A stretch of 64,000 bases of DNA from Lentimicrobiaceae bacterium (lineage in GTDB: Bacteria > Bacteroidota > Bacteroidia > Bacteroidales > F082). The stretch covers positions 186,001 to 250,000 of the forward strand of contig SUWV01000001.1 of assembly GCA_015061315.1 (NCBI GenBank), given 5' to 3'. Below, piece after piece: positions 8,371 to 62,075 of the stretch. The notes beneath the pieces are model-generated. The model was not told the DNA's origin. It saw nothing but the letters and a program-made list of their open reading frames with translations, and made no database searches. The stretch's first letter is position 1. Every line of letters starts with the position of its first letter. A program made the translations under genes and the position numbers.

Positions 8371-11319
8371 ATGAAAAGGAATATTTTAACATTAATCCTA
8401 ATTTGCATTATAGGAACAGCAGCCTTTGCGCAAAATATCATCGAGCCAGAATTACAAGAATTTATGAATCAAAACAACGACGAGAAAATCAGCGTAAATA
8501 TAATTTTCAAGTCGCAGTTAGATGTTAAGGAACTAAGAACAAATTCTAATAATTATTTAGATAAAGAGACTAAGCGACAAGCTGTGATTAAAGAGTTTAA
8601 AGAATTCTCAGAAGCATCGCAACAAGAAGTCGTTTCCTTTATCAAGTCGCAGGAAAGCAAAGGAGCTGTCACTGATATGGTTTGCCATTGGCTTTCAAAT
8701 TCAATCACTTGCACAACGACAAAAGACGTTATCGAGGCATTATCGAAACGCGATGACATTCTATTAATAGGATTGAATGCTGAAAGAAAAGTGATTTTAG
8801 GAGACAACAAGTCAACGAGTCAACGAGACGACAAGATGGAAATCACGTCTAACGTATTGCAAGTCAATGCTGACAAAGTCTGGGATTTAGGATATACGGG
8901 AGAAGGCGTTTTAGTCGCGATATTAGACTCTGGTGTTGATTATGAGCAAGTAGATTTAGCAGATCATCTCTGGGACGGTGGCGTAGAATTTCCAAAACAC
9001 GGATATAACTTTGCCGATAACAACAACGATCCTATGGATGGAACAGGACATGGAACTCATTGTTCTGGAATTATTTGCGGCGATGGCAGTAGCGGCACAC
9101 GAACAGGAGTCGCGCCAGACGCCACATTGATGTGTGTGAAAATCATAAACAGTACGGGCAACACCGACGCTGGCAAAATCGTCTCGGGAATGGAGTTCGC
9201 CGTAGAACATGGAGCCGATGTTTTGAGCATGTCGGTCGGAATTGCCAGTTCCTCGACATCAGAAAGAGAGATGTTACGAGAAGCTTGTGTCAAGACATTA
9301 GAAGCTGGCGTAATTGCCGCAGTGGCAGCAGGCAACGATGGTAATTCACTTAACAAGAATCCGATACCAAACAACGTCAGAGTGCCAGGCAGCTGCCCAG
9401 CTCCATGGATTCACCCTGACCAACAGGAAAATAGCGGAGCTACATCATGCGTCGTTTCGGTCGGAGCCGTAGATAAAAATGATAAACCTGCCGCATTTTC
9501 GTCACAAGGACCAGTGACATGGCAAGAGACTTCTTACGCCGACTATCCTTATGATCCAGGCATCGGCTTGATACGTCCCGACGTCTGTGCTCCAGGTGTA
9601 GATATTATCTCGTTAGGGAACAACAGCGAAGATTATGTAAAAATGAACGGTACATCACAGGCAACTCCTTGCGTAGCAGGTATCATGAGCCTCATGCTGT
9701 CGAAAAATCCAGAATTGACACCAGAACAAATCAGCATGATTTTAGAGACGACAGCAGTAAAATTAGAAGAGAAGAAAAATAACAAAACAGGCTCGGGTAG
9801 AGTAGACGCTCTCGCTGCAATAAATGCCATCGACATGGGCGATATCATCTTTAAAGAATTGACATTCACCGATAAAAATAATAACAACAAGATAAATGTT
9901 GGCGAAGAAATTGAACTCGACATCACTTTTGAAAATATTTCCGACGATAGTTTCGACAACGTGAAAGCTGTATTAAAATGCACCAACGATTTAGTTAATA
10001 TCACTAATGGAAATGTCGAAATAAATAACATAGCTGCAAATCAAATATTTAACATCAATGAATTTAGCTTTATAGCCGGTAATGATATTAAAGACCAAAC
10101 CACATTGTTCTTCGACATAGAATTTTACAAAGACGATAATGTTATTTCCACTACGAGATTTTCCGTCGTGACATTCGACAAAGACTTATTGTTCTCGGAA
10201 GTCATTGTGAAAAACGACGACAATAACAACGGCATTCTCGAAGCAGGCGAGACGGCAGACTTAGGCGTTGTCATAAATAACAGAGGAAGGGAGATAGCAT
10301 TAAATGTTAATGGAATTTTAACAAGTAACGATAACAACATCACGATAAATAAAAGCGAAGCTGAGTTCGGTTCAATAGCTCCAAATAGTTCCGTTACAGC
10401 ATACTACAATGTCACATTATCGAATAACGTATCTGATAATAGCGACATCACTTTCAATCTTGAGATAAAAGATAAATATAACTTCACAAAAGCTTTTAAC
10501 ATAAATTATATTAACACTTGCGATATAATTTACAATTTAAAAGACGATTTCGGTGATGGCTGGGGTGGAGCTAAAATCATCGCAAATTATAATGATGGTT
10601 CAGAATCTGACAGTTATACAATAACTAAAGGTAAATCGGAGACCTTCACAAAGACATTGAACACTGGAGTTGAAGTGTCGTTGGAATGGAAGAAAAGCTA
10701 TGCTGACGCTGAATGTAAATATTCTATAAACTATGATAATGGCGTCGAGATTTTCAGTGGTTCTGGCTCTCAAAGCGGTACTTTCTTCAGCTGGACTCAG
10801 AATTGTTCTACACAAGATATGATTATTGAGACATGCGAAGGCGTGAAAAACTTCAACGTGAATGTTGGCAGCAACTCAGTGAATCTATCTTGGGAAGCTC
10901 CAGAAAAAGAAGGCGTTATCAATTATGAAATATATCGTGAGACAACACTCATCGCCACTACAGAAGAGTTAAGCTACGTGGATAACAATCTCATCAGCGG
11001 TTCTTATACCTATAGCGTGAGACCTGTTTATGAAAGTTGCAATGGTAATACTTCTTCAGAAGACATCGCTATTTGCGTTGGCGTTGCGGAGAATATCATT
11101 CCAGATGTGACTATTTATCCTAATCCTTCGAAGGGAATCTTCACAATAAAACATGATAACATAGAAAGCATCACATTATATAATGTTGTTGGAGCTAAGA
11201 TTTTTGAAGCTAATATCGATGACAGAGAATATGTCATAAGCGATTTAGAATCGGGAATATATTTCGTTAATATCAAGACTAACGAAGGAAGTGTCATCAA
11301 GAAAATAGTTAAATATTAA
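8371..11319 (+). CDS. Secreted subtilisin-like (S8) serine protease with T9SS sorting domain
   Basis: A 982-residue protein with a signal peptide (1-21, ending AFAQ) and an inhibitor-like propeptide to about residue 150. The S8 catalytic domain has all three catalytic residues: Asp186 (ILDSGVD), His227 (GHGTHCSG) and Ser429 (NGTSQATPCVAG). After it come two Ig/CARDB-like segments (about 490-705), a segment with DDFGDGWGGA (about 725), a fibronectin-III-like domain (about 825-905) and a T9SS sorting domain (from IYPNPSKGIFTI, about 912). It should be exported by Sec, cross the outer membrane by T9SS and act at the surface or outside. A repeat-derived octamer array encodes the linker NKSTSQRDDK between propeptide and catalytic domain, near where maturation cleavage is expected. 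Confidence 0.93.
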   Translation: MKRNILTLILICIIGTAAFAQNIIEPELQEFMNQNNDEKISVNIIFKSQLDVKELRTNSNNYLDKETKRQAVIKEFKEFSEASQQEVVSFIKSQESKGAVTDMVCHWLSNSITCTTTKDVIEALSKRDDILLIGLNAERKVILGDNKSTSQRDDKMEITSNVLQVNADKVWDLGYTGEGVLVAILDSGVDYEQVDLADHLWDGGVEFPKHGYNFADNNNDPMDGTGHGTHCSGIICGDGSSGTRTGVAPDATLMCVKIINSTGNTDAGKIVSGMEFAVEHGADVLSMSVGIASSSTSEREMLREACVKTLEAGVIAAVAAGNDGNSLNKNPIPNNVRVPGSCPAPWIHPDQQENSGATSCVVSVGAVDKNDKPAAFSSQGPVTWQETSYADYPYDPGIGLIRPDVCAPGVDIISLGNNSEDYVKMNGTSQATPCVAGIMSLMLSKNPELTPEQISMILETTAVKLEEKKNNKTGSGRVDALAAINAIDMGDIIFKELTFTDKNNNNKINVGEEIELDITFENISDDSFDNVKAVLKCTNDLVNITNGNVEINNIAANQIFNINEFSFIAGNDIKDQTTLFFDIEFYKDDNVISTTRFSVVTFDKDLLFSEVIVKNDDNNNGILEAGETADLGVVINNRGREIALNVNGILTSNDNNITINKSEAEFGSIAPNSSVTAYYNVTLSNNVSDNSDITFNLEIKDKYNFTKAFNINYINTCDIIYNLKDDFGDGWGGAKIIANYNDGSESDSYTITKGKSETFTKTLNTGVEVSLEWKKSYADAECKYSINYDNGVEIFSGSGSQSGTFFSWTQNCSTQDMIIETCEGVKNFNVNVGSNSVNLSWEAPEKEGVINYEIYRETTLIATTEELSYVDNNLISGSYTYSVRPVYESCNGNTSSEDIAICVGVAENIIPDVTIYPNPSKGIFTIKHDNIESITLYNVVGAKIFEANIDDREYVISDLESGIYFVNIKTNEGSVIKKIVKY
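8803..8835 (+). repeat. Octamer array (GTCNACRA family) inside the subtilase gene
   Basis: Units GACAACAA, GTCAACGA, GTCAACGA and GACGACAA follow one another with an exact 8-base period. They are the same units as in the gap at 40671-40707. They are translated in frame as a polar linker. Confidence 0.7.
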
Positions 11320-13270: not shown

Positions 13271-13355
13271 CAATTAACAGTTGACAATTTACAATTAACA
13301 GTTAATAGTTATTTATTACTCGTTGACTTGTAGACTCGTAGACTTGTTGACTTTA
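13265..13355 (+). repeat. Heptamer array followed by reverse octamer array after dut
   Basis: Bases 13265-13310 are heptamers of the GACAATT/AACAATT/AACAGTT type and include the dut stop codon. Bases 13318-13354 are octamers which on the minus strand read GTCAACAA, GTCTACGA, GTCTACAA, GTCAACGA. The array fills almost the whole gap between dut and the TPR gene. Confidence 0.75.
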
Positions 13356-15899: not shown

Positions 15900-17179
15900 G
15901 GCGTAAAGTCGTAGAGTCTAAAAGTAGAGACGCGTCAATGATACCTATAAAATCAATAAACATTGACACGTCTCAACAAGTTCAACGTTCAAAGTTTTTA
16001 GTTCTATTATTTCTCCTGATGATAAACATCGCGGCTTGGAGTCAGAGCACTGAGTCATTAGAGAAGAAAATCAATTCTATTCAGAAGGACATCAAGCTTG
16101 CGGAGAAGTTGTTGAAAGAGACTTCCAAAAACAAGGAGACGACTATAAATCAGGTCAGCCTGCTTCAGACACAAATAAAGCAGAGAGAGAGTCTGATAAG
16201 GACATATCAGAATCAGGTCAATGCTTTGAACAGAGATATTCAGAAGAACAAGAACGAGATTGCGGCTTTGAAAAAAGACCTTACACTTTTTCAAAAAGAG
16301 TATGCCAACTTACTATTGATAGCTTATCGTAATAAAGGTAAGACTAACAATTTACTTTTTATTTTTTCTTCGGAGGATTTTAACCAGGCGATGCGTAGAA
16401 TGCGTTACATACGCGAACTCAACGATTTGGTGAAGGTTAAAATTGAAGAGATAAAAGACACTCAGGAAAAAATCAACGAGCAGTTGGAGAAAAATGAATC
16501 CAATAGGAGAGAGATTGAGAAGGTCATGGCTAAGGAAAAAGAAGAGAACGCCTCGCTGAAGAAAGACCGCGACAAACTCAACAAAGATGTCGCTTCGTTG
16601 AAGAAGAAAGAAAGCCAGATACAAAGCGATATCAAGAAGAAGGAGAACGAGACGAAGAAGCTGAAGAAACAGATAGAGAAGATTATAGCAGAAGAAATCA
16701 AGAAGGCTAAGGAAAGAGAAGAGCTCGCCAAGAAAAACAACACTAAATCTGTCGATTATAATCTGTCGAGCAACTTCGCGCAGAACAAAGGCAAGCTGCC
16801 ATATCCTGTTGAACAAGGTATCATTACGGGGAAATACGGTCTGAGTCCGCACCCGACACAGAAGAAAGTCACTGTTAATAACAATGGTGTTGATATAAGC
16901 ACAACAAAAGGAGCTAAGGCACGTTCCGTATTTGATGGTGAAGTCAGCTACGTCATGCTTCAAGGCAACAACAACGTCATCTTGATACGTCACGGATTGT
17001 ATTTCACCTTGTATTCAAATCTTGAAAAAGTCTTCGTGAAGGCAGGGGAGAAGGTGACGACAGGGCAGGAGATAGGACGTGTCCACACCAACGTCAGCGA
17101 CGGCAAGACGATACTGCATTTTGAGATATGGCAAGAAAACAGAACGACAGTAAACCCAGCACTATGGATTAAGAAGTAG
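15896..17179 (+). CDS. EnvC/NlpD-like murein hydrolase activator with degenerate LytM domain
   Basis: A 427-residue protein. The start at 15896 follows a strong purine-rich AAAGGAGGAGG and overlaps the previous stop as ATGA, so I keep it although it gives an odd 33-residue n-region before the signal core (FLVLLFLLMINIAAWSQ). Residues ~50-285 form a long coiled coil, and the C-terminus is a LytM/M23 fold. The M23 zinc ligands are partly lost: HxGxD reads NNNGVDIS (Asn for His near 329) and the HxH pair reads SNL (Asn375) before LHFEIW (His408). This fits an EnvC-type activator of amidases at the division site rather than an active peptidase. The n-region is made by an inserted palindromic repeat. 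Confidence 0.9.
   Translation: MRRKVVESKSRDASMIPIKSINIDTSQQVQRSKFLVLLFLLMINIAAWSQSTESLEKKINSIQKDIKLAEKLLKETSKNKETTINQVSLLQTQIKQRESLIRTYQNQVNALNRDIQKNKNEIAALKKDLTLFQKEYANLLLIAYRNKGKTNNLLFIFSSEDFNQAMRRMRYIRELNDLVKVKIEEIKDTQEKINEQLEKNESNRREIEKVMAKEKEENASLKKDRDKLNKDVASLKKKESQIQSDIKKKENETKKLKKQIEKIIAEEIKKAKEREELAKKNNTKSVDYNLSSNFAQNKGKLPYPVEQGIITGKYGLSPHPTQKKVTVNNNGVDISTTKGAKARSVFDGEVSYVMLQGNNNVILIRHGLYFTLYSNLEKVFVKAGEKVTTGQEIGRVHTNVSDGKTILHFEIWQENRTTVNPALWIKK
15924..15974 (+). repeat. GTAGAGACG palindrome, copy A (in coding sequence)
   Basis: This imperfect inverted repeat starts GTAGAGACGCGTCAATG and ends CATTGACACGTCTC. The same element is at 17205, 17518, 41114 and 51496. It is preceded by GTCGTAGAGTCTA and followed by CAACAAGTTCAACG, both related to the octamer arrays. 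Here it is translated as the front of the EnvC-like protein. Confidence 0.8.
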
Positions 17180-17567: not shown

Positions 17568-17601
17568 TTGGTGACTTGTTGTCTTGTTGTCTTGTAGACT
17601 C
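17568..17601 (-). repeat. Octamer array (GTCNACRA family)
   Basis: On the minus strand the units GTCTACAA, GACAACAA, GACAACAA and GTCACCAA run into the GTAGAG of palindrome copy D without a gap. Confidence 0.75.
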
Positions 17602-18902: not shown

Positions 18903-18931
18903 CAAGCATGAAACTGTAATATTTTTATGTC

Positions 18932-21900: not shown

Positions 21901-22048
21901 CAAAGTGGCAATCTATGACCTCGCAGGAAGATGCGTCTTGAAAGCTGAAAATGTCAATAATATCAGTACGGCAGATTTCAGCAAGGGAACGTATCTCGTC
22001 AATGTCATGACATCTGAATCAAATAAAACTTTTAAACTAATCAAATAA
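18932..22048 (+). CDS. T9SS-secreted protein with Omp28-like thioredoxin-fold domain
   Basis: A 1038-residue protein with a signal peptide (1-22, ending AVMAQ). Residues ~30-500 resemble a beta-propeller-like surface domain and are clearly paralogous to the next gene (shared blocks include SPEGE.LWGE and DTRIYR.G.GSIP.WT). Residues ~510-760 look like an Omp28/thioredoxin-type domain: LIEEFTGIQCGNCPDGH with the redox pair Cys525/Cys528. A DVWGDGITSP segment near 925 resembles the subtilase's DDFGDGWGG. The C-terminus is a T9SS sorting domain (FKVAIYDLAGRCVLK). The CxxC suggests a thiol-disulfide or metal-binding role at the cell surface, unproven. It starts a tightly spaced set of three T9SS genes. 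Confidence 0.85.
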   Translation: MFKRFFFILTLFFATAFAVMAQDFKNQINVINPETIAYDWDFNVIPDGTTLTAWNGPGVNGNGIATYFNIHDKDGNSIFPDGAMLVDELPSKLYTTAKQLSLIDRDNNTIIAYQTLDNAVDAGLESNVNENYRLYKISPEGEMLWGEHGIDLNRGKYSEATQGCLSMVQIEDGSYYFAWVEYTWNGDYEIGTIHLERVSQDGEMLWDEPVILGDGVTPMTFPYLVNAGNNQVIMVYAKGSGQELNAKKLDFDGTEVWNSDTRIYRNGFGSIPIWTFLKVQADGEGGVFVGWYDDRNGTNFERTYLAHVLSNGEHGFVSEEGGEAIAYTDTLRSFAPSIYYDKENQYVYVLRRETSYGQGYSRLMLQKMSMSGELLWDSEGVEVYPYEETYLGYENISDDGEGNIAIFFMKNKKTSDSDNVVNLFMKVSKEDGSVVLDPIAFSPTTENRANLKISKLINNEYWIAMWEDKRILPTDDTNVDITELPSRLYMQKILKDGTVESNDFNVSTKPENKKFLIEEFTGIQCGNCPDGHAMAKNLKLAKEGEGFIIAIHAGYYSNPAPDQINLNTDDGLTIHNFYGANSYPSGMVNRREYYDNIIVGRSSWVMIARETNSETAPVNLWLDCQYDDFYEELTINVEGYWTADSPSDEPKLSVALLQNNIQGYQAGSGVGDEYMHQHVLRDYITDALGDTISKNKKGDFFSKTYKYVLPSDYNGVVVVPEQLEIIAFVSETESNILNVTGKKLTHPSFELPLEATISEPKIPIRKNYFYSFVELYLDNKSTETITKATFDVELNGITKEVEWTGEVPALSMKQIAVPVDWTTTQTEENDWSVTLASINGEEYKGNKIKGSFNKPTLVTDNVRIKIKSDSYADDNRFMLKDQDGNIVEEFEGFVNGEAKELEFELSLDQGKIYCFEVTDVWGDGITSPRGHVKIYSDEDKLLTQNMEIKDFGWRVFLEVEKGESIDELSDDEIKMTYINDCIIIDESRDFKVAIYDLAGRCVLKAENVNNISTADFSKGTYLVNVMTSESNKTFKLIK

Positions 22049-22059
22049 ATTTTATCCTT

Positions 22060-23784: not shown

Positions 23785-23794
23785 ATCTAGGCTT

Positions 23795-26700
23795 ATGAAA
23801 AAATTTTTATTATCGCTCGCTACGGTGCTATGTCTCGCCGTGACAGCAAACGCACAGGCAATTTTCGGCTATGGTCTTTCTCTTAACGAAGAAGGTACAT
23901 ATACAGCCATCGCTGATGGAACAGTAATCGCATCAGGAACCAATGAGGCTATTCAAACCTCAGTCGATGAATGGGGCGATCCTCAGAACAATTTTAACGA
24001 TAAAGTGATATTTCCTTCTGGTATCTTTGCCGAAGAAACAACAGCAGAAGCTTATCCTATCGGTTTCGATTTCACTTACAACGAAAAGACTTTCACATCT
24101 TTCGCTGTTGCTACAAATGGCGTTATCTACTTAGGTAATGAAACAGTTACAGCATATACCGACGGCAGATACACATTTACAAGCGGTAGCGGCAGCAATC
24201 TCATCGGATTTGTCAGCAATCGCGGTAATATTTGTAATGATGAAACTGTCATAAGTTATAAAACAGAAGGCACAGCTCCTAACCGCGTGCTCGCAGTCGA
24301 GTTCAAAGAATTGGGTTTCCTCCAAGGATATTGGGGAACAGAAGCTTATTTCTTCGATGTCCAATTACGTTTGTATGAAGGAACTAATGCTATCGAATTT
24401 GTTGTAAATAACGCTGATGAAGCAATGACAAGCGTTGACGACGAAGGCAATACTGAAACATATAACACTCTCGTCACTATCGGTATCAAAGGCGAAGGCG
24501 ATGATGTTACAAAAGTATTTGCCGGCGAATTAAGCGAATGGAATGCTGAAAACGCTACATCAAATGAATTCTCTATCGACAGCAATATCAAAGACGGAAC
24601 AACTTTCACTTTCGCATATCCTCAAGATGTGGTAGCTCCTACAGCGCAAGCAACAGAATTTGTTGTCAATAACTTCTCTACAGAATTGAAAGGTTCTTTC
24701 AAAAAAGTTGAAGGCGTAGATACTTATCTCTTGGTTTATCAAGAAGGTAAAGAAATAACAACACTTCCTGTCGACAAAACATCATACGCTCCTGAAGATA
24801 AAATCGGTGAAGCAACGGTAATTGAATACAACGAATCATGGGAATATGAAGACGTATATGAATTTGAACTCTGGGATCTTCCAACTGCAACCGACTACAC
24901 ATTCGCTGTTTATGCCGTTAATTCTTTTGGCTTGAACGGACCTCTTTACAATACCGTCGATGTTCCTACTGTAGTGACATTTACCAATCCAGCAGCTCCT
25001 GCTACATTCAATATCGTTAATACAACAGATTCGACAGCAGTTATAAATCTTGAAGCAAACGATAAAGCTAACAAAATATTGGTCGTCTATAACACAGAAC
25101 TCGTTCGCAGCATATATGGCGATTATCCTCTCATCGGCGAATTGTCGGGCGAATATGAAGCTGGTCAGAAAATAGATACTGCAGGTTATGTGGCTTATTT
25201 CGGCGAAGCTAATGAGAATATAGTAGTGACAGGTTTAGAACATTCTAAAGGCTATTTCTTTGAAGCTTACAGCTATGACCCAACATACGGTTATTCTACA
25301 GATAAATTATCAGCCGACGCAGCTACAATAGCACATCTTCCTTATACATTAGATTTGAATGCGGCAAAGACATACGGACTGCCAGCAGGCTGGACAAAGA
25401 ATGAAGACGGCAGATTTGAACTTCCTAGCTCGGTGCCTGGCTATACCACAGAAGACAATCCTCATGTCCTATGGTGTAAAGAAACTCGTAAAGATGCAGA
25501 AAATGGTGTGATAAATCAACTTACAAGCTGCCCTATTGTCGTCGATCAACGCGATGCTGTCGTGAAATTCGACTTCGCTATGTATTATCAACCAAGCCGT
25601 TTCGGCACTGATGCTTACAACGATTGGGCTGAAGGCGATGTCTTCGCAGTGCAAGTAAGTACCGATGGCGAGACTTTCACAGATTTGGCAACATATACTC
25701 CAGAAAATCATCCTGAATTTATTTACAATGATACTGTTAAGTCATTCGCTCAGTTTGAAGGTGAAATAGCACAATATGAAGGACAGCAAATTTGGGTTCG
25801 TATCCACTGGCATTTGTTCAGTACAAGCTTCGTACCTGGTATTCTCGTTCTCGATAATTTTATCGTTGAAGGTCGTGAAATTCCAGTGATACCAGTCGTG
25901 AAAGTGGAAGATATTACACATGTCTCAGCAAAAGTGGCATGGCGTGGCGAACAAGAAAATTATGAGGTGGCATACGCAAAGACAGGTGAAGAATTTACAA
26001 CTCAAGTCGTTGAAGCTGCTACTGAGTTAGAACTTGCAGAACTCGAAGCAGAGACAGAATATCAAGTGAAAGTACGTGGCATCGTTTCTGAAGAAGAGTA
26101 TTCAGATTGGTCAGAAGTCGTTACATTCACAACAACGGCATGGCCTAAATGTGAAGCTCCTGTAAACCTTGTGTCTGAAATAACATTTACTCCGGGAGAA
26201 ATTTCAGCTACACTCACTTGGGAACTCAATGAAGAACATCTTACATGGGAAGTGAGATACCGCGACGGTAACTCAACAGAATGGACAACAATAAATAAAT
26301 TGGAACAACCAGGATTGATACTCAAAGGTCTTGAAGAAGGCACCACATACTTATGGAATGTCCGCGCTAACTGTACTGCAGATAGAGTGACAGACTGGTC
26401 GGCTCAGGCTTCATTTGAAACTCCGGTAACACCAGAAGCTCCTAAAAACTTGGTGGCTACTGCAACAAGCTCAAGTGCTATTACATTGACATGGGATCCT
26501 GTTGAAGGCGCTATAGCTTACGGAGTCTCAGTATTCGGCGAATATGTAGGTGCTGTCGATAAACCAACAGCAGGCTTTACAAAAATGGATCCTGATACTG
26601 AATATTGCTTCTCGGTGTTCGCAATTATGGAAGTTAATGCTGAAGGCGTCATAACACTATATTCTGAAGATTCTGAAGAAGTCTGTGCTACAACATTACC

Positions 26701-27934: not shown

Positions 27935-28025
27935 CAATTAACAATTGACAATTAACAATGTACAGTTGATAATTAACTACTAATAAAATAATTATTAATT
28001 GTTCATTGTTAATTGTTAATTTTTC
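27929..28025. repeat. Inverted heptamer arrays after the ROK kinase; possible terminator
   Basis: Heptamers of the GACAATT/AACAATT type (27929-27976) are followed by the opposite orientation (27996-28020). ACAATTAACAATG at 27948 is exactly complementary to CATTGTTAATTGT at 28004, and a T-rich stretch follows. A long hairpin is possible. The right arm also supplies the -33 TTG of the tRNA promoter. Confidence 0.65.
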
Positions 28026-40400: not shown

Positions 40401-40408
40401 TATAAAAT

Positions 40409-40470
40409 CTGAGAAACTGAAAATCTGAGAAATTAAAAAATCTCAGGTTTTCAGTTTTTCAAATTCTCAG
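40409..40470. terminator. Terminator-like hairpin made of inverted CTGAAAAT arrays
   Basis: CTGAGAAACTGAAAATCTGA, then GA, faces TCTCAGGTTTTCAG and the rest of its complement to CTCAG at 40470 across an A-rich loop. Both arms are octamer arrays. It lies eight bases beyond fba. Confidence 0.7.
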
Positions 40471-40494: not shown

Positions 40495-40530
40495 AGTCCA
40501 CGAAATAGTCCACGAAATAGTCCACGAAAT
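40495..40530 (+). repeat. Three exact 12-base tandem repeats
   Basis: AGTCCACGAAAT occurs three times without a gap. Looser copies of CACGAA/CGTGAGGATTAGTG follow to 40580. The whole block is in the presumed 5' leader of the tRNA-Pro precursor. Confidence 0.85.
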
Positions 40531-40659: not shown

Positions 40660-40670
40660 CTTTTTTAAAG

Positions 40671-40773
40671 TCAACAAGTCTACAAGACAACGAGACAACG
40701 AGACAATAGGAATTTATCTCGTTTTTTTATTATCCCTTATCTCGTAGACTTGTAGACTCGTAGACTCGTAGAC
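40671..40773. repeat. Inverted octamer arrays (GTCNACRA family) between tRNA-Pro and mntP
   Basis: The left arm, 40671-40707, reads GTCAACAA, GTCTACAA, GACAACGA, GACAACGA, GACAATAG. The right arm, 40740-40773, is the reverse orientation (CTCGTAGACTTGTAGACTCG and on). They could pair into a hairpin with a T-run near the loop. Confidence 0.8.
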
Positions 40774-40782: not shown

Positions 40783-41445
40783 ATGGACCTAATATCACTC
40801 ATAACTATCAGCATCGCACTCTCGATGGACGCTTTCTCGGTCTCCATCTGTCAGGGTCTGTCAACAAAGAGATTCTCTCTCAAGATGGCTTTGTCGTGCG
40901 GGCTGTGGTTTGGTTTCTTCCAGGCTTTGATGCCGCTGATAGGATATTTCCTCGGAGCTCAGTTTGAACATTTCATTACGCATATCGACCATTGGATAGC
41001 TTTCGGATTACTTAGCGTTATTGGTGGTAATATGATTAGAGAGTCAATAAGTCAACGAGATAACGAGACAACGAGTGAAGAGTCGCCAAGTCACCGAGTC
41101 ACCGAGTCCCCGAGTAGAGACGTGACACATTACACCGATGAAAATAAACACGATGTAATTGGTGCGTCTGAGCAAGTCACCGAGTCGAAATCGGCGTCAA
41201 TGTTGATATTAGCGATTGCCACGAGTATCGATGCTCTTGCGGTGGGAGTGACGTTTGCCTTCTTAAAAGTCAATATCTGGAAGTCGATACTTATTATAGG
41301 AATAACGACATTTATGTTTTCTTTCGTCGGTGTCAAGATAGGACATGTCTTTGGCTCGCGATATAGTAAGGCTGCCGAGATAGTCGGAGGCGTGATATTG
41401 ATAGTGTTGGGAATTAAAATCTTGATAGAGCATCTTTTCTTTTAG
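40783..41445 (+). CDS. mntP: MntP-type manganese efflux pump with repeat-derived loop
   Basis: A 220-residue membrane protein with six hydrophobic helices in two homologous halves. The paired motifs SMDAFSVSICQG (near 14-25) and SIDALAVGVTF (near 147) carry the conserved aspartates of the MntP/UPF0059 family. It exports Mn2+ across the inner membrane. The E. coli protein is ~188 residues; the excess lies in the central cytoplasmic loop (about residues 86-138), polar and rich in Ser, Thr, Glu and Arg. That loop is encoded by GTCNACRA octamers and a whole GTAGAGACG palindrome (41114-41169), kept in frame. The flanking helices look intact, so the pump is probably functional. Confidence 0.9.
   Translation: MDLISLITISIALSMDAFSVSICQGLSTKRFSLKMALSCGLWFGFFQALMPLIGYFLGAQFEHFITHIDHWIAFGLLSVIGGNMIRESISQRDNETTSEESPSHRVTESPSRDVTHYTDENKHDVIGASEQVTESKSASMLILAIATSIDALAVGVTFAFLKVNIWKSILIIGITTFMFSFVGVKIGHVFGSRYSKAAEIVGGVILIVLGIKILIEHLFF
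41043..41113 (+). repeat. Octamer array inside mntP
   Basis: Units GTCAATAA, GTCAACGA, GATAACGA, GACAACGA, then GTCGCCAA, GTCACCGA, GTCACCGA, GTCCCCGA lead directly into palindrome copy B. Confidence 0.8.
41114..41169 (+). repeat. GTAGAGACG palindrome, copy B (in mntP)
   Basis: It starts GTAGAGACGTGACACATTAC and ends GATGTAATTGGTGCGTCT, two complementary arms. It is followed by the octamer CAAGTCACCGAGTC. The copy is in frame and free of stops in the mntP frame. Confidence 0.8.
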
Positions 41446-50437: not shown

Positions 50438-50481
50438 AAAACCTGAGAATCTGAAAATATGTCAAGTTCTCAGGTTTTTTT
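50438..50481 (+). terminator. Terminator of the 46.7-kb adhesin gene
   Basis: AAAACCTGAGAA pairs with TTCTCAGGTTTT, and a T-run follows. It sits in a CTGAAAAT octamer array that starts four bases after the stop. Confidence 0.8.
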
Positions 50482-50596: not shown

Positions 50597-51478
50597 ATGA
50601 AGAAACTTTTACTCATTACATTATGTGTTTTCGGCATGTTCGGAGCACTCAAAGCACAAGAAACAGAAGTCGTTATAGACGGTACTGTAGGTTCGTATGA
50701 TGAAAGTATGAATAGATACGCACCTATCTTTGTTGCTTATCAATATTCAATTTCACAGCAATATTACTTAGCAGAAGAGATTGGTATGGAAGCTGGCACT
50801 ATCACAAGCCTTTCTTTCAAAACAGATATGACTTGGTATGAAACAGCACCACGCAGACTCGATGTCTTTTTAGTGAACACAGAGAACAGTTCTTTCAATG
50901 GCTTGAATATGGAGCAACTTACTCTTGATGACATTCATTTTTCAGGCAATGTTACTTTTGCACCAAGCGCATGGGTGGAAATAAAATTAGATAAAGCGTT
51001 TAATTACACTGGCGGTAATATCTTGATTTGTGTCAGCGATATGACAGGAACACAAGGATTTTTTGACGGATATTTCACAGGTTTCGTATTGCCAGAAGGC
51101 AGCCCTGCTAGATGTGTATGGCACAGAAATGAAACTCTTCCTTTCGATCCAATCGCTAAGGTGGAAGTCGCTAACGAAGTGTCTTACTGCATTCCTTTCA
51201 TAAAATTCGTATTCTCAGAAACAGATGCTATTGAAGAGAACGCTGCTTCTTTCAACGTCTATCCAAATCCTGTTGAAAATGAATTGTTCATCGCAACAGA
51301 AATGAATGTTGAAGAAATCGCTGTTTACGATGTTTACGGTCGCCAAGCTTTGAGTCAACAAGTCAACGAGACAACAAGTCAACAAGTTGTCAATGTTGCT
51401 GAGTTGAACGAAGGCGTTTATTTCGTGAAGATAGTAACTGACAATGGTGAAATAGTAAAACGATTCGTTAAGAAATAA
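50597..51478 (+). CDS. Minimal member of the adhesin cluster: one N-terminal module plus T9SS sorting domain
   Basis: A 293-residue protein: signal peptide (1-21, ending LKAQ), one copy of the cluster's N-terminal module (about 23-210; YQYSISQQYYLAEEIGMEAG, FNYTGGNILICVSD) and a T9SS sorting domain from FNVYPNPVENELF. It lacks the Fn3, Ig-like and jelly-roll domains of its neighbours, so the module can stand alone. The sorting-domain DNA is nearly identical to that of the preceding gene except for the 48 bases encoding QALSQQVNETTSQQVV, an octamer array. It ends 88 bases before the next gene, with palindrome copy E between. Confidence 0.87.
   Translation: MKKLLLITLCVFGMFGALKAQETEVVIDGTVGSYDESMNRYAPIFVAYQYSISQQYYLAEEIGMEAGTITSLSFKTDMTWYETAPRRLDVFLVNTENSSFNGLNMEQLTLDDIHFSGNVTFAPSAWVEIKLDKAFNYTGGNILICVSDMTGTQGFFDGYFTGFVLPEGSPARCVWHRNETLPFDPIAKVEVANEVSYCIPFIKFVFSETDAIEENAASFNVYPNPVENELFIATEMNVEEIAVYDVYGRQALSQQVNETTSQQVVNVAELNEGVYFVKIVTDNGEIVKRFVKK
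51350..51390 (+). repeat. Octamer array inside a T9SS sorting domain
   Basis: Units GTCAACAA, GTCAACGA, GACAACAA, GTCAACAA encode SQQVNETTSQQV. The same units are in the intergenic array at 40671. Similar tracts lie at 26832-26874, 59196-59232 and 61778-61815. Confidence 0.7.
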
Positions 51479-51495: not shown

Positions 51496-51525
51496 GTAGG
51501 AGACGCCACAATGTGACGTCTCTAC
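51496..51525 (-). repeat. GTAGAGACG palindrome, copy E (short form)
   Basis: On the minus strand it starts GTAGAGACGTCACATTGTGG and ends CGTCTCCTAC, a near-perfect 30-base palindrome. On that strand it is entered from octamer-like GTCAATAA, GTCAATGC, GACAATAA (51526-51550). It may also act as a weak terminator. Confidence 0.8.
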
Positions 51526-51566
51526 TTATTGTCGCATTGACTTATTGACATTAAATAAAATAAATC

Positions 51567-55473: not shown

Positions 55474-58400
55474 ATGAGAAAATTTTTACTTTTAACAATG
55501 ATGTGCTTCTTCGCATTATGCGGAACATTGAATGCACAAGACACAATTCAGGTGGGAACGAAAACCAATACCGATGCAAGTTTCCCTATGAATACCTATT
55601 ACAATTATTCCTATTCGCAGCAGATCTTCACTGCGGAAGAAATTAATCATGCTCCAGGATTTATCTCCGAAATAGCTTTCTTTACAAATAATACTAAATA
55701 TAATCGTGAAGTGACGATTTATATGATTAATACAGATAAGGAAAGTTTCTCTTCGAGAGAAGACTGGGTTTATGTCGGAATTTCTGATATAGTTTATGAA
55801 GGCTTCGTAAGCTGTAATTCGACATTGAGTATTCCTCTTACAAATAATTTTGAGTACACTGGCGGAAATATATTATTATGTTTGCAAGACCGTACTGGTA
55901 AATATGATAATTATACTTCCTTTGATGTCGTCAGCGCTGCAAATGATTATACCATATACATGTATACTGATAACAGCATGATTACTCCAGAGAATGTCAG
56001 TACAAGAATTAATGAGCAACACTGGGAGGTCGTTTTGGGCAAAAATGTCGTTCAATTGATATTTGCCGCTGAAGAAAAACCTGTTGAAGGCGCTCCTGCA
56101 ACTCCAACGAATGTTACAGCAGAAGCTATCAGCCAAACAGAAATAGCTTTGTCGTGGGACGCTGTTCAAGATGCAGTTTCTTATAATGTCTATGATGATA
56201 AAGGTACTGTTTTAGATAACGTGACAGAAACTTCATACACAGTCGAGGACTTGGAAGCAGAGACAAACTATTGCTTCAAAGTGTCGGCTCTCAACGACAG
56301 TTTGGAATCTCCAGCTTCAGTGAAAGTATGCGCAACAACATTACGTAATCCTGAAATTATTGTAAATCTCGAAGAAGTAGAACTCGGTGATATTATCCTC
56401 GGCGACTTCTGGTCAGAAAACAACGACAAATCTGTTGCATTATCGTTGGAATGTATTGAAACAGAAATTACAAATGTTGAATGTGATAACGAATTTTTTG
56501 TTTTGCCAGAAGTAATTGATTTTACAGCAAATCCTGTAACATTCGATATTACTTATAACAAAGAAACTATTGCCGTAGGTGAAAAGACAGCTGAGCTTGT
56601 AATTACACATACACACGGAAATGTGACAATTCCAATGTCGGCAAATGTCTATGCTCCAGAAACACCAGACGTGTTTGAACTTGCACAAGAAATCACATTG
56701 CAAGATGGTACTTTTAGTGCAACCCCAGATTTCGAGAACTTGCACGACAACTATAACCTTCCTAATGAAGTCAATGTCGGTAACACTCCAGATGCAGTCT
56801 ATTCTTTTGAGTTGGATAAAGAGCAGGCAGTAACTGTAGATGTTACAGGAACAAACGCCATCTATGCAATATATAAAGCCGAAGATTTGGAAAATGCCGG
56901 ACCTAAAGCCGATAATAATTACGCAGGTGAAAGCGGTGCATCTTCAACATTCTTCTATGACTTCAGCGAAGAAAACGTATTAGATAACTTCACATTGTTG
57001 GATAAAGACGGAGACGGTTATAATTGGTTCATAATGAATAATGGTATTGATGGAAAGAGTGTGGTTTCAGAATCATGGAGGTCGGGAGCAGGCGCCTTGA
57101 ATCCTAACAACTATATCGTAACAAAAGAAAAATATGTTATCAAGTCTACTTCAAAATTATCATTTGAATATTTCAGTGCATACGATGAAAAAATCGGCGT
57201 GGAAATCTCTACTGATGGCGTTACCTTTACCAATATATGGAGCGATGCTGGAAAATTTTCTTCTAAAGAAGCTGAAATCTCATTGGCAGAATATGAAGGA
57301 CAGGAGTTGTATATAGCATTGCGTCACTATGAATGTTCAGACGGAATGACAGCTGTTGTCGACAATTTCAGTTTGGAAAACAGCGACGGCGACTTCGTTA
57401 CATTCCCAGCAGGAAAATATTATTTAGTAGCAGCAGCAGAAAACGCCTTCACAGTCAATATGACAGTCGGCGCTAACCCAGCAGATCTTCCTGCAGCTCC
57501 TCAAAACCTCAGAGTCGATAAAGTGACAGCAACATCAGTAACATTATCATGGGATGCCGTTGCTGAAGCTCAAAGCTATAACGTATACGAAGGAACAAAA
57601 TTAGTGGCAGATAATATCATTGCTACAACATATACAGTCGAAAATCTTGAAGCATTCACAGAATATACATTCTCAGTGAGAAGCTTCGACGGAGAATATA
57701 CTTCATTCTCTTCTGCAGAAGTTCATGCCACAACAATTGACTTCGCGATAACAGCTCCACAGAACGTTGCGGTTACAGTCCTCGATGCTTTCTCGGTGAA
57801 AGTAAGTTGGGACGCTGTTGAAAATGCAACAAGCTATAACGTATATCAAGATGATGTTAAAATTGGAAGCGGATTGACAGTGACTACATTAACAGTAGAA
57901 AATTTGGATCCTGCAACAGAATATTGTTTCGTGGTATCAGCCTTACGTCGTGATATAGAAGAAAAAGCAGCTGCTGTATGTGGCACGACATCGGCCATCG
58001 ACTTCAATGCCGACAACTTGGAAACAGAATTCATGTTCGACTTCAACGACCAATCTTTCGAAGGTTTGAGAACAATAGATGCTGACGGCGACGGTAACAA
58101 CTGGAAATTGACAACAGCTGAGCAAGGTTATGAAAATACATATGCCGCAAGATCTTATTCATATTATGGTCAGGCATTTAATCCTGATAACTATTTGGTG
58201 ACAAAAGCACCTTATATGATAGATGCTACTTCAATGGTTTCTTTGAACGCCAGAATAGGATATGAAATGGATATGTTTAAAGGCGAGCATTATGCTGTTG
58301 TGGTATCCGAAAACGGCAAAGACTGGACTGTTGTCTTTGAAGAGACGTTAGAACATACAGATTGGACAAATACGTCAGTATCGCTTGAAGCATACGCGGG

Positions 58401-59319
58401 AAAAGCTGTTCTAGTCGGTGTTCGCCACTACAATTGTACGGACCTTTCTTTCTTGCGCGTTGATAATTTCGCATTGACAAGCGATGTGGAACCAATAGAA
58501 CCAGTCGTTGTTCCAAATGCACCAACAAACTTGAAGGCTGAGGCTATTAACGCAACATCAATTAAATTGACATGGGACGCTGTTGAAAACGCAACTTCTT
58601 ATAAAGTATATCGCGGAATGATAGACCTCGGCGAAGTTTTTGAAACGTCTTGTATCGCAGTAGGCCTAAGTCCAGAAACAAACTATTGCTTCACAGTGAC
58701 AGCTCTCAACGAAGCTGGCGAGTCAGCTCCATCAGAACAAGTTTGTGAAGAGACCTTGGAAGGAAGCGTGACACCAGATAAACCAGAAGCACCAAAGAAC
58801 TTAGTGGCTGAAGCAACAAGCCCAACAACGATAACATTGACATGGGATCCAGTGGAAGGCGCAATAGGCTACGGTATCAATTTCTTTGGAACATATCTCG
58901 GCTCAACATCTGATGTCACTGCAAAAGTTACCAATTTAGAACCTGAAACAGAATACTGTTTCACAGTGATAACAATTACTGAGATGACAGAGATAGATGG
59001 AGAAAACTTCATTACAGGTTGTTCCGACGACTCAGAAGAAGCTTGTGCAACAACACCTAAGGAGGACGCTGTTGAAGAACTCGCATCATTGTTCAACATC
59101 TATCCAAATCCTGTAGAGAATGAATTATTCATCGAAACAGAAATGATCGTTGAAGAAATTGCTATTTACGATGTTTATGGTCGTCAGACTATGTGTCAAC
59201 AAGTCAACGAGACAACAAGTCAGCAAGTTGTTGACGTGGCTGATTTAAAGGCTGGCGTTTATTTCGTGAAGATCGTTGCAGATAATGGCGAAGTTGTAAA
59301 ACGTTTCGTGAAGAAATAA
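55474..59319 (+). CDS. T9SS-secreted modular adhesin-like protein (1281 residues)
   Basis: Signal peptide 1-22 (ending LNAQ), N-terminal module (about 23-205; YYNYSYSQQIFTAEEI), Fn3-like domain (~209-292), Ig-like domain (~295-395; ELGDIILGDFWSENND), a pre-jelly-roll segment (VFELAQEITL), jelly roll (~490-650), two Fn3-like domains (~670-845), a second jelly roll (~850-1005), two more Fn3-like domains (~1010-1195) and a T9SS sorting domain (IYPNPVENELFIETEM). The Ig plus pre-jelly-roll plus jelly-roll order matches the 46.7-kb and 59.6-kb genes closely, which points to duplication and shuffling of whole blocks. The sorting domain has the octamer-derived QTMCQQVNETTSQQVV. Confidence 0.88.
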   Translation: MRKFLLLTMMCFFALCGTLNAQDTIQVGTKTNTDASFPMNTYYNYSYSQQIFTAEEINHAPGFISEIAFFTNNTKYNREVTIYMINTDKESFSSREDWVYVGISDIVYEGFVSCNSTLSIPLTNNFEYTGGNILLCLQDRTGKYDNYTSFDVVSAANDYTIYMYTDNSMITPENVSTRINEQHWEVVLGKNVVQLIFAAEEKPVEGAPATPTNVTAEAISQTEIALSWDAVQDAVSYNVYDDKGTVLDNVTETSYTVEDLEAETNYCFKVSALNDSLESPASVKVCATTLRNPEIIVNLEEVELGDIILGDFWSENNDKSVALSLECIETEITNVECDNEFFVLPEVIDFTANPVTFDITYNKETIAVGEKTAELVITHTHGNVTIPMSANVYAPETPDVFELAQEITLQDGTFSATPDFENLHDNYNLPNEVNVGNTPDAVYSFELDKEQAVTVDVTGTNAIYAIYKAEDLENAGPKADNNYAGESGASSTFFYDFSEENVLDNFTLLDKDGDGYNWFIMNNGIDGKSVVSESWRSGAGALNPNNYIVTKEKYVIKSTSKLSFEYFSAYDEKIGVEISTDGVTFTNIWSDAGKFSSKEAEISLAEYEGQELYIALRHYECSDGMTAVVDNFSLENSDGDFVTFPAGKYYLVAAAENAFTVNMTVGANPADLPAAPQNLRVDKVTATSVTLSWDAVAEAQSYNVYEGTKLVADNIIATTYTVENLEAFTEYTFSVRSFDGEYTSFSSAEVHATTIDFAITAPQNVAVTVLDAFSVKVSWDAVENATSYNVYQDDVKIGSGLTVTTLTVENLDPATEYCFVVSALRRDIEEKAAAVCGTTSAIDFNADNLETEFMFDFNDQSFEGLRTIDADGDGNNWKLTTAEQGYENTYAARSYSYYGQAFNPDNYLVTKAPYMIDATSMVSLNARIGYEMDMFKGEHYAVVVSENGKDWTVVFEETLEHTDWTNTSVSLEAYAGKAVLVGVRHYNCTDLSFLRVDNFALTSDVEPIEPVVVPNAPTNLKAEAINATSIKLTWDAVENATSYKVYRGMIDLGEVFETSCIAVGLSPETNYCFTVTALNEAGESAPSEQVCEETLEGSVTPDKPEAPKNLVAEATSPTTITLTWDPVEGAIGYGINFFGTYLGSTSDVTAKVTNLEPETEYCFTVITITEMTEIDGENFITGCSDDSEEACATTPKEDAVEELASLFNIYPNPVENELFIETEMIVEEIAIYDVYGRQTMCQQVNETTSQQVVDVADLKAGVYFVKIVADNGEVVKRFVKK

Positions 59320-59320: not shown

Positions 59321-59500
59321 ACCTGAAAATCTGAAAACCTGAAAACCTGAAAAACCTGAGAATTTGAGATATTCAAGTTCTCAGGTTTTTTATTGTCTTG
59401 TAGATTTCTGTCTCCACGTATCGCAGGTATCTGCACGTATCTTTTTTGCTTGTAGACTTGTAGACTCGTTGACTCATTGACTTGTAGTCTCGTAGACTTT
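59321..59500. repeat. Composite array: CTGAAAAC octamers, GTATC decamers, reverse GTCNACRA octamers
   Basis: CTGAAAAC octamers run from 59321 into the terminator at 59351. ACGTATCGCAGGTATCTGCA then CGTATC (59415-59441) repeats GTATC about every 10 bases and recurs at 61999. Reverse octamers (TTGTAGACTTGTAGACTCG and on) fill 59450-59500. No gene is present in the 264-base gap. Confidence 0.75.
59351..59391 (+). terminator. Terminator of the 55.5-kb adhesin gene
   Basis: AAAACCTGAGAA and TTCTCAGGTTTT form the stem; the last bases of the right arm are part of a T-run. Same design as at 50438 and 61933. Confidence 0.8.
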
Positions 59501-59583: not shown

Positions 59584-61902
59584 ATGAAAAAGAATTTACT
59601 GCTTACAATTATTTGTGTGTTAGGATTATTCGGAAGCCTCAGCGCACAAAAGACTATCACTTTAGGAGAAGGTGAAGATTATTCTTCAGATCTTCCTTAC
59701 AACAACTCATGGTGTTATTCCGCTTCACAACAACTTTACAGATCTGATGAATTGAACATTGAAGATGTCGCTAAGATAGAAAGCGTAGCATTCAAATCAG
59801 CTTCAGAGAACTTGAATGAGAGCTATATTCAAATCTACATGAAGAATACTTCAAAATCATCATATATTGAAGCAGCAGAATGGGTGCCAGTCACAGCCAA
59901 CGATAAAGTGTATGAAGGTTATATCCGCACAACAGGCTTAGATGAATGGAGCACTATTGAATTGACTACACCTTTCATTTATACTGGCGGTCACGTATTG
60001 GTATGTGTAAACATTGGTGTCGAATATTATCTTTCATCAAATGAACAAGATCAATTCTACACATATTCTCCTTCAACAACAAGTGCTTATTCATGCACTA
60101 TACGTTCAAATGAAAGAATCGACATTCCAAATGTGCCAACAGAATTGTTAGAAAACGGAAGCGTAGGTCCACAAAAGAATCAAATTAAATTTGTTTATTC
60201 ACAGAAGAAAGAAAAAATCAATGCTAATTTTGAAAGCATCGACATGGGCGAAGTCGTATTAGGTGAATATTGGACAGAAAGAGAAGATAAATCTGTTATC
60301 GTATCAGCAGCTTCATATTATACAAAATTAGAAAGCGTCACTTGCAGCGATTCTTTCTTCGTATTGTCAGAAATAGATTATAATGCAAGTCCATTGCAAT
60401 TTGTTGTGTCGTACGACAAAAATGCTACAGCCGGTGAAAAATCAGCAGAAATCACAATCAAAGATGAAGATGGCGCTGAAGTCGTTATTCCTATTACAGC
60501 CACAGCTTATACTCCTGTAGAACCAGACGTTGTAGAACTCGCTAAGGAAGTTACATTCACCGACGGCGTTTATACCGATAAGCCTGACTTCGCAACATTA
60601 CACGATGATTATCTGTTGCCAAATGAGAATCTTTTAAATATAGCTCCAGATGCTGTTTATTCTTTGCAATTGGAAGAAGATGCTCTCGTCTTGGTTGATG
60701 TAGAAGGTAAGAATTCTAAATTCGCTCTTTATGCAGAAGACTTCGGTGCTAATGAAGGACCAACCTCAGATAACGTTGTGACAGGTGAAGAGACAATTAT
60801 CGCTACTACATTCTCATACGATTTTGAAGATGGAAAACTCGATGACTTCACTATCGTAGATTATGATGAATTTAAAGATTATACTTGGACAGTAGAAGGT
60901 AATTCTGAAAACCATTATTTGACATCTTATTCTTACAAATGGTTGGGCGACGATCCTTTATATATCAATGATGCTGATGAACGTATCATTACAAAGACAG
61001 CTTATCCTATTACACCTAATTCGGTCTTGACATTCCAGATGACCAAAGGTGAATATGATTTTGAAGAAGTTTTGATAGAGGTAACTAAGGACGGTGAAAA
61101 CTTTATAGAAATAGAGAAAGTTACTTATCATGATTATACAATGAACTGGAAATCATGCAGAGTTGATATGGGAGTTAGATTCGCTGCTTTAGGTATAGAA
61201 TACGGCGAATACCAAATCGTATTGCACCATGATTTGCCAGGCGTAGGTCAGATTGTAATTGATAACCTTTCACTGACTGAAAGAACAAATGTGGTTCCAG
61301 CTGGTAACTATTATTTGGTTGTCGCAGCAGAAGACGCTTTCAATGTAACAGTTTCATTAGGTGAAATTCCTGAAGAAGAAAAACCAGGAGCACCAACAAA
61401 CTTAGTCGCAGAACCATTGAGCGATAGCACAGTCAGATTGACATGGGATCCAGTGGAAGGCGCTTTGGGTTACGGAATCTTAGTCTATGGCGAACCATTG
61501 GGTGTAACTCTCGAAACAACAGCAATAATTTCAGAGTTGACCCCTTATACTGACTACTGCTTCACGGTGGTATCTATTATAAAAGTAGATGAAAATAATT
61601 TCCCAGAAGAAATCTCTGAACAATCGAATGAAGCTTGTGTGATGACAATGGGCGTTGAAGAACTTACATCTTCATTCAATATCTATCCAAATCCAGTGGA
61701 AAATGAATTGTTCATCGAAACAGAAATGAACGTTGAAGAAATTGCTATTTACGATGTTTACGGTCGTCAGACTATGTGTCAACAAGTCAATGCGACAACA
61801 AGTCAACAAGTTGTTGATGTGGCTGATTTGAAGGCTGGCGTTTATTTCGTGAAGATCGTTGCAGATAATGGCGAAGTTGTAAAACGTTTCGTGAAGAAAT
61901 AA
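59584..61902 (+). CDS. T9SS-secreted modular adhesin-like protein (772 residues)
   Basis: Signal peptide 1-21 (ending LSAQ), N-terminal module (about 23-212; WCYSASQQLYRSDELNIEDV), Ig-like domain (~215-315; DMGEVVLGEYWTERED), pre-jelly-roll segment (VVELAKEVTF), jelly roll (~415-595), one Fn3-like domain (~598-690) and a T9SS sorting domain. It is a shortened relative of the 55.5-kb gene. The last ~170 bases of the two genes are nearly identical, including silent sites, so recent duplication or gene conversion is likely. It has its own promoter and terminator. Confidence 0.88.
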   Translation: MKKNLLLTIICVLGLFGSLSAQKTITLGEGEDYSSDLPYNNSWCYSASQQLYRSDELNIEDVAKIESVAFKSASENLNESYIQIYMKNTSKSSYIEAAEWVPVTANDKVYEGYIRTTGLDEWSTIELTTPFIYTGGHVLVCVNIGVEYYLSSNEQDQFYTYSPSTTSAYSCTIRSNERIDIPNVPTELLENGSVGPQKNQIKFVYSQKKEKINANFESIDMGEVVLGEYWTEREDKSVIVSAASYYTKLESVTCSDSFFVLSEIDYNASPLQFVVSYDKNATAGEKSAEITIKDEDGAEVVIPITATAYTPVEPDVVELAKEVTFTDGVYTDKPDFATLHDDYLLPNENLLNIAPDAVYSLQLEEDALVLVDVEGKNSKFALYAEDFGANEGPTSDNVVTGEETIIATTFSYDFEDGKLDDFTIVDYDEFKDYTWTVEGNSENHYLTSYSYKWLGDDPLYINDADERIITKTAYPITPNSVLTFQMTKGEYDFEEVLIEVTKDGENFIEIEKVTYHDYTMNWKSCRVDMGVRFAALGIEYGEYQIVLHHDLPGVGQIVIDNLSLTERTNVVPAGNYYLVVAAEDAFNVTVSLGEIPEEEKPGAPTNLVAEPLSDSTVRLTWDPVEGALGYGILVYGEPLGVTLETTAIISELTPYTDYCFTVVSIIKVDENNFPEEISEQSNEACVMTMGVEELTSSFNIYPNPVENELFIETEMNVEEIAIYDVYGRQTMCQQVNATTSQQVVDVADLKAGVYFVKIVADNGEVVKRFVKK

Positions 61903-61905: not shown

Positions 61906-62075
61906 CTGAAAATCTGAAAATCTGAAAATCTGAAAACCTGAGAATTTGAGAGTTGTTCAAGTTCTCAGGTTTTTTATTGTCATGGTGACTTCTATCTCCG
62001 CGTATCGCGGGTATCTGCACGTATCTTTTTACTCGGTGACTTGGTGACTTGGCGACTTGGTGACTTGGTGACTCA
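61906..62075. repeat. Composite array between the last two adhesin genes
   Basis: CTGAAAAT octamers (61907-61940) lead into the terminator, GTATC decamers lie at 61999-62025, and five octamers GGTGACTT (one GGCGACTT) at 62034-62073. The 303-base gap holds these arrays, a terminator and a promoter, and no gene. Confidence 0.8.
61933..61975 (+). terminator. Terminator of the 59.6-kb adhesin gene
   Basis: AAAACCTGAGAA pairs with TTCTCAGGTTTT and T-rich sequence follows. Confidence 0.8.

Follow-up and report, generated by a model that had tools for sequence, protein, structure and literature searches.

Tandem blocks of degenerate octamers and imperfect hairpins with a GTAG foot are physically linked in the genome of this Lentimicrobiaceae bacterium, the array preceding the hairpin on the same strand and the GTAG following the last octamer in register. 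Order, strand and register proved genuine at the GTAG side, and the initial annotation, which had proposed such a link from the 64,000-nt stretch analysed here (the window), was right about it. A clade shared by both repeats and hairpin-free arrays at orthologous slots were likewise observed. We tentatively favour the reading that the arrays are landing sites for an orphan REP-like hairpin over that of one compound unit. Two clade-specific repeat classes would then be joined physically. The first would be a block of degenerate GWCNMYRA octamers, mostly four, which may exist and turn over independently at intergenic sites and in permissive gene slots. The second would be a GTAG-foot hairpin of ~45–57 nt, a putative orphan REP-like element settling at the 3′ edge of the block, with GTAG directly after the last unit. 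The arrays would probably come first and serve as the landing site, and a Y1/HUH-type enzyme, perhaps lost or unrecognised here, would have moved the hairpin in single-stranded form.

The junction was searched in the bacterium's own genome, a 49-contig draft of 2.47 Mb (95% complete) that contains the window. The sequence GTAGAGACG occurs there in 184 copies, as against 41 for the backwards pattern, while the in-register joint motif (an octamer unit plus GTAGAGACG; GWCNNYRAGTAGAGACG) gave 79 matches against none backwards. Among 392 other genomes of the order, two had the same in-register junction, with a single copy each; this sample includes four other members of the genus, none from the clade. 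The loci read were the stretches round the first 100 listed of the 184 GTAGAGACG places, and together with the window they provided 60 long hairpins with distinct surroundings. Among the 59 long hairpins with 32 nt on both sides, an octamer unit ends exactly at GTAG in 37, compared with 2.9% of random places in the same loci. The other 22 carry no octamer unit at the foot, and several of these lie within heptamer arrays. Palindromes without an array on the GTAG side, which had been named initially as evidence against a compound element, were therefore found, but as a minority of the copies. A tandem array of any word, called at a threshold reached by 5% of random places, was present on the left of 42 of the 60 hairpins, on the right of 26, on both sides of 18 and on neither side of 10, some of the last keeping one or two octamer units. 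Further words found next to hairpins were RACAATT, GAAGAAT, GTCTAAA and GGAGTGAT. A common 7-mer was shared by the flanks of 32 of the 60 hairpins versus 28.5% when these were dealt anew, and the same heptamer or octamer words stand on both sides at loci L051 and L040, and at locus L133 of the related genome G009. Locus L040, at the end of contig 14 of the own genome, is also a dense cluster in its own right, with twelve GTAGAGACG starts and two hairpin types repeated with GGAGTGAT arrays.

The fixed order proposed initially was confirmed in the clusters of the own genome in which a single hairpin is combined with a single octamer array, three units being the minimum (n = 21): the array leads into the hairpin on the same strand in 18, the order is reversed in 2 and the hairpin is on the opposite strand in 1. 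Most hairpin clusters, in a total of 102 clusters, have a single hairpin, and one cluster consists of two facing hairpins alone. Counted from the side of the arrays, 47 of 113 in the fetched loci and the window directly precede GTAGAG[AT] and 66 do not, a count that is biased towards hairpins because the fetched loci were chosen around GTAGAGACG; the class of 47 also includes a few sites other than the long hairpin. Complete four-unit blocks account for 29 of these 47 arrays. Of the proposed association, the order, the common strand and the phase stood, but a single compound element was not supported, in view of the 66 arrays without GTAGAG[AT] after them, the 22 hairpins without an octamer at the foot and the identical hairpins with differing left arrays in the relative G008 (see below).

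In the window itself, all five palindromes described initially are present, at 15924, 17205 (17206 in our reading), 17518, 41114 and 51496. Octamer-phase sequence adjoins the GTAG foot at each of them, weakly so at 15924 and 17206. The octamer phase of the proposed unit held, but strict GTCNACRA (43 occurrences in the window versus a shuffle mean of 15.5) was too narrow, and GWCNMYRA was adopted as the working consensus. The type C hairpin at 15924–15973 (plus strand) lies within the coding sequence of an M23 peptidase gene (15896–17179), in its 5′ part, and follows two weak units, GTCGTAGA GTCTAAAA, at 15908..15923 (plus strand). Two hairpins of the minus strand are intergenic: one at 17206–17255 (GTAGAGATG), preceded by the weak unit CAGTCATCAA, and one at 17518–17567 (GTAGAGTCG), abutted in register by a four-unit array at 17568..17599 (minus strand). 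The short hairpin at 51496–51525 (minus strand, intergenic) has a GTAG foot at each end and is abutted by three diverged units, GTCAATAA GTCAATGC GACAATAA, at 51526..51549 (minus strand). Altogether, three of the five window copies are intergenic and two lie within ORFs.

The type A hairpin at 41114–41169 (plus strand) lies within an MntP-like gene (PF02659; 40783..41445, plus strand), the frame of which is open through the hairpin. The loop segment of the encoded protein has 58 residues here versus 23–46 in the 22 relatives with a loop that were read, and by eye the loop is made up of array, hairpin and octamer remainder. A four-unit array (GTCAATAA GTCAACGA GATAACGA GACAACGA) is found at 41043..41074 (plus strand). 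A second one (GTCGCCAA GTCACCGA GTCACCGA GTCCCCGA) at 41082..41113 (plus strand) abuts the hairpin in register, the adjoining units being of the form GTCRCCRA/GTCCCCGA. Past the hairpin, octamer sequence (GAGCAAGTCACCGAGTCG; GAGCAAGTCACCGAGT) at 41170..41185 (plus strand) has one unit in phase at +6. In the MntP loop of relatives, ACAACRG heptamers were seen by eye in G029, a serine-codon array in G008, and an inverted pair of GTGGAAA heptamers in G048, which is outside the clade. The spacer between the tRNA and MntP-like genes contains a palindrome of octamer arrays with no hairpin, its left arm consisting of five units at 40670..40709 (plus strand) and its right arm of four units at 40742..40773 (minus strand). 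Octamer palindromes of the form T-run/array/loop/array/A-run were observed by eye in this spacer in several clade species, with differing unit consensus; the spacer is short without a palindrome in G008 and G010, and short with at most a remnant in G021. A separate 12-mer, AGTCCACGAAAT, occurs in three perfect copies at 40495–40530, between the aldolase and tRNA genes.

The properties of the octamer unit were derived from 94 arrays with a minimum of three units, 396 units in all. Positions 1, 3 and 8 of GWCNMYRA are nearly fixed and position 6 is C or T, while positions 2 (T/A), 4 (any), 5 (A/C) and 7 (A/G) are variable. Position 5 is homogeneous inside arrays, with 94% alike between neighbours versus 53% between arrays. 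At positions 2, 4 and 7, neighbours (68, 54 and 43% alike) are hardly more alike than units of different arrays (61, 49 and 50%), and adjacent units are no more alike than non-adjacent units of the same array. The 113 arrays of at least two units in the fetched loci and the window comprise 16 of two, 15 of three, 59 of four, 15 of five, 7 of six and 1 of seven units, so that four is the mode. When perfect units alone were counted among the matches listed from five species, 80 arrays comprised 46 of four, 27 of three and 7 of at least five units. A four-unit mode as a general rule for heptamers was rejected, as RACAATT runs among the matches listed (n = 62) number 35 of three, 17 of four and 10 of at least five units; the backwards control of this search is a rotation of the same array and hence no control. 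For the octamer word YTCAGMAA, the runs among the matches listed (n = 31) are 14 of three, 14 of four and 3 of at least five. In the own genome, the octamer array pattern was matched 439 times.

The window contains 14 arrays of at least three units, seven of which have exactly four by script, and two more have a poor fifth unit (GACTATGT). Four-unit arrays with no hairpin were located at 8803..8834 (plus strand, in the linker of a subtilase gene), 13320..13351 (minus strand, intergenic), 51354..51385 (plus strand, within a T9SS sorting-domain coding region), 59195..59226 (plus strand, near the 3′ end of ORF 55474–59319) and 61778..61809 (plus strand, within a T9SS sorting-domain coding region), the script adding a poor fifth unit to the last two. 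Intergenic arrays of six units at 59450..59497 and five units at 62033..62072, both on the minus strand, are also without a GTAG hairpin. The arrays at 51354, 59195 and 61778 form a similar four-octamer block near the 3′ coding end of three genes, two of which have a detected T9SS sorting domain. Octamer arrays are immediately followed at 59411–59449 and 61993–62032 by another array-edge partner, a period-10 element (minus strand: GTAAAAAGATACGTGCAGATACCCGCGATACG..., or GCAAAAAAGATACG... in the first case), and similar elements were seen at the array edge in loci L042 and L062. Besides, the window has a palindrome with 36-nt arms of RACAATT-like heptamers (27940–28024) and array palindromes of AATCTGAG-like octamers (40406–40465, 59350–59390, 61933–61973 and 50438–50478). 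Array palindromes were nevertheless discarded as a general form, the own-genome loci having just five convergent pairs and no divergent one. On contig 6 of G015 (9251–26571), octamer arrays were noted at seven listed places, several of them ~2.1 kb apart, as if there were one per repeated gene. A known RNA family was also rejected, since the Rfam matches in the window are two tRNAs and nothing else.

On the far side of the hairpin, an octamer unit starts 6 nt past CGTCT in 14 of 59 cases versus 2.7% of random places, which is the spacing expected if an AGAGACG...CGTCT element sat between GT and C of a unit with no loss or duplication. Any unit within the 15 right-hand offsets was found for 23 of the 59 hairpins, and as 36% of random places have one, this total is at chance level. 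Right-hand arrays of at least two units are at +6 in seven of eight cases, resuming without gain or loss. Five of those seven begin with TAATRA, and such a start may be the normal beginning of a new block and not a continuation. Octamers of the same position-5 subtype occur on both sides at 41114, L025 and L043; in six hairpins with TAATRA directly past CGTCT, at least three differ in subtype between the sides (by eye). A right flank of a T-run and AGTTGTGGAGTGATGG recurs past several hairpins (by eye), with the T-run directly after CGTCT in 8 of 60, and in L053 chained copies were found in the order array-hairpin-TAATGA-array-hairpin.

The long hairpin pattern, GTAGAGACGN{26,44}CGTCT, has 106 matches in the own genome and none in the control. 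The length is mostly 45–57 nt in 58 distinct own copies, the search pattern allowing 40–58. Stem pairs 1–5 are fixed by the search pattern and uninformative on pairing. Positions 6–12 are paired at 0.836 in 34 hairpins of the own genome other than type A, chosen regardless of pairing; when their arms were re-dealt 500 times, the mean was 0.798 and the maximum 0.824, none of the 500 reaching the observed value. A set of 51 B/C-type hairpins from own and related loci, which was chosen by pairing, is paired at 0.863 and exhibits several standard pair types at positions 7, 12, 13 and 15. Position 6 is unpaired in 33 of these 51, with a C·A mismatch being kept. By its structure as predicted from sequence, the hairpin is a GTAG-foot, REP-like element, as indicated by the foot together with stem pairing beyond that of re-dealt arms. 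By an ungapped hairpin score, type A hairpins were not separable from random sequence.

A mover in trans of the REP/RAYT kind, which had been suggested initially, found no support. No Y1_Tnp gene (PF01797) was detected in the own genome at its 95% completeness, so a REP/RAYT system as such is not what is encountered here, and the family is absent in five of the 11 clade genomes (own, G008, G009, G021 and G029). Eight Y1_Tnp genes were found in the clade, and around the seven with surroundings that were read, no GTAGAGACG hairpin lies within ~4.3–4.4 kb. A different sequence, the foot GTAGGGACG, is found within 200 nt of two of the clade Y1_Tnp genes (in G015 and G022). A RAYT acting in trans was searched for in the own genome and the genus and rejected, the own genome having none. 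Reverse transcriptase was also discarded as a common factor: RVT_1 occurs once in the own genome and is absent in four of the 11 (G009, G015, G033 and G035), three of which are just 79–84% complete. No parent transposon was found in the search for Y1_Tnp and RVT_1.

The distribution was examined in relatives, the compared genomes being separate species. The long hairpin pattern has at least 28 matches in 11 of 99 genus genomes and at most 12 in the rest; in those same 11, the octamer array pattern has at least 11 matches, with at most 6 in the rest. On a tree of the MntP protein without the loop (29 genomes), the 11 genomes form one side of a branch with support 84/96, the bootstrap being not settled. 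As they group together, the co-occurrence of arrays and hairpins may go back to a single origin and lends no independent weight to their linkage. Relatives named through MntP, among them Lentimicrobiaceae SIG106 and a roe deer colon genome, are uncultured Bacteroidales, and several come from gut samples. A run of three YTCAGMAA units was found in six of the 11 clade genomes, the own genome not being one of them, and is absent from the 88 other genus members.

For the M23 gene, whose 5′ coding part carries the two weak units and the hairpin in the own genome, no hairpin was seen by eye in this slot in any relative read. Arrays without hairpin were seen by eye in five of the nine relatives read (G009 lying outside the set): four YTCAGCAA units in G015, YTCAGAAA-like octamers in G029, G021 and G022, and four GTCAAYR-like heptamers in G010. 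None was seen by eye in the other four, G035, G028, G033 and G008. In the subtilase linker, the four octamers of the own genome are matched by an ACAGTCA-like run in G010, and no array was seen in eight other relatives. The two repeats also part company within single genomes. An identical hairpin occurs at four loci of G008, where the right-hand words are similar and the left arrays differ: two loci have a long left flank in common, a single octamer unit is kept at the third and different units stand at the fourth. In G009, one identical hairpin at five loci (L123–L127) has CATNGC hexamers with one variable position on the right and no left array. From these loci it is evident that arrays and hairpins are separable.

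As the hairpin is often exactly in register at the block end, it is suggested that the blocks may act as landing sites. In favour are the 79 junctions versus 0, the 37 of 59 feet, the 14 of 59 units at +6, the array subtypes and words shared by both sides, the M23 slot, the G008 loci, the GTAG foot with its stem pairing and the 84/96 branch. Nevertheless, random insertion into four-unit arrays would leave between one and four units to the left of the hairpin and any others to its right, yet 29 of the 47 arrays before GTAGAG[AT] are complete four-unit blocks. It is above all this placing of hairpins behind complete arrays that sits badly with simple insertion. These complete blocks are better explained by one mobile unit composed of four octamers, a GTAG hairpin and perhaps the T-run or a TAATRA start; this unit would have spread in trans and left hairpin-free arrays as decayed copies. 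The 18 of 21 clusters with the array ahead of a same-strand hairpin, the chained copies of L053 and the recurrent T-run and AGTTGTGGAGTGATGG flank agree with such a unit. We still consider it rather unlikely, as arrays without the hairpin foot outnumber those with it (66 versus 47), one hairpin has different arrays in G008, hairpins lie within heptamer arrays, and hairpin-free arrays occupy orthologous slots in five species. The landing-site reading, which we prefer with the reserve stated above, has further counts against it: the five TAATRA starts in seven, the 23 of 59 right-hand units at chance, the 22 of 59 feet without octamer, the 10 of 60 hairpins without array, the array on the other side in G009, and no enzyme found.

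The remaining explanations are given much less weight. Arrays could grow at the hairpin, where a stalled polymerase would slip and expand any short sequence beside the GTAG foot. The several different words beside hairpins, commoner on the GTAG side (left 42, right 26 of 60), are in line with this, but many arrays have no hairpin, slippage predicts a falling spread of copy numbers where 59 of 113 have exactly four, adjacent units are no more alike than non-adjacent ones at positions 2, 4 and 7, and local slippage would not give 439 array matches in the own genome; we regard it as improbable. Slightly more improbable is a functional nucleic-acid module of putative binding or folding sites (e.g., for a regulator or transcript ends) put together by selection. 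The mode of four units, the nearly fixed positions 1, 3 and 8 and the tRNA-MntP spacer palindromes, present in several species with differing words, would be expected from it, whereas the free variation at positions 2, 4 and 7, the arrays within unrelated genes and the lack of Rfam matches in the window besides two tRNAs would not. That two unrelated repeats met by chance, both being common in the own genome, is barely credible; it was rejected as contradicted by the phase (79 versus 0 backwards) and the order (18:2:1).

Among known systems, the hairpins resemble GTAG REP elements in the GTAG foot on an imperfect hairpin, more than 100 copies, compensated stem changes and some copies within genes. 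REP elements are given as 20–40 bp in PMC3733652 (Di Nocera 2013), compared with mostly 45–57 nt for our hairpin, and section 7 of that article states that most REPs are not associated with other repeats, unlike the hairpin docked in register to tandem octamers. The same section already has a few REP families sitting in defined target palindromes, so the mere existence of a landing site has precedent. In PMC6006769, GT[AG]G REPs of long and double-foot form are reported together with TnpAREP subclass 2.4 from Cyanobacteria and Bacteroidetes, and the 51496 copy with a foot at both ends is like these double-foot REPs. Dispersed, largely intergenic arrays are described in PMC4679880 for TAACTGA heptamer direct repeats, also in five Bacteroidetes, and in PMC4692102 for the G-rich heptamers of Xanthomonas and Nostoc. 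Ours are likewise dispersed short-word arrays, but where each of these studies has one word, several are used here depending on the species, the octamer has a four-unit mode, genes contain arrays too and the arrays have a hairpin partner. In contrast to TnpAREP/RAYT systems, the own genome has no Y1 transposase, and no such REPs were found beside the fetched clade Y1 genes. Unlike in REPIN/BIME, inverted pairs are not the main arrangement (one two-hairpin facing cluster of 102). MITEs are similar in being small, non-autonomous and without coding capacity, and may differ in lacking a target duplication, none being seen in the in-register cases; no parent transposon was found with Y1_Tnp and RVT_1 searched. 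The small dispersed repeats of Nostoc that Elhai treated in 2008 are reportedly tiny structured repeats often embedded in tandem heptamers, and are said to be 21–27 nt long and cyanobacterial. Our hairpins are likewise embedded in tandem repeats (left 42, right 26 and both 18 of 60), but are mostly 45–57 nt long, belong to Bacteroidales and are associated with octamers, mainly on one side and in register. Among the matches listed from the open-licence literature on octamer arrays in Bacteroidales, REPs and tandem heptamers, none dealt with such arrays and hairpins combined.

The arrays are the stranger and more interesting half of the finding. In a speculative extension, which we hold to be doubtful, some process would write blocks of ~32–36 nt, mostly of exactly four degenerate octamers, at recurrent slots with species-specific words; the arrays would be no product of slippage but a dispersing class of their own, and an orphan REP-like element in single-stranded form would dock at their 3′ edge. 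If the proposed reading is true, there would be a REP-like element with a tandem array as its landing site, together with a class of short tandem arrays that has a set commonest length and words changing by species at one slot. Moreover, the origin of dispersed 7–8-mer arrays would become testable through strain comparison.
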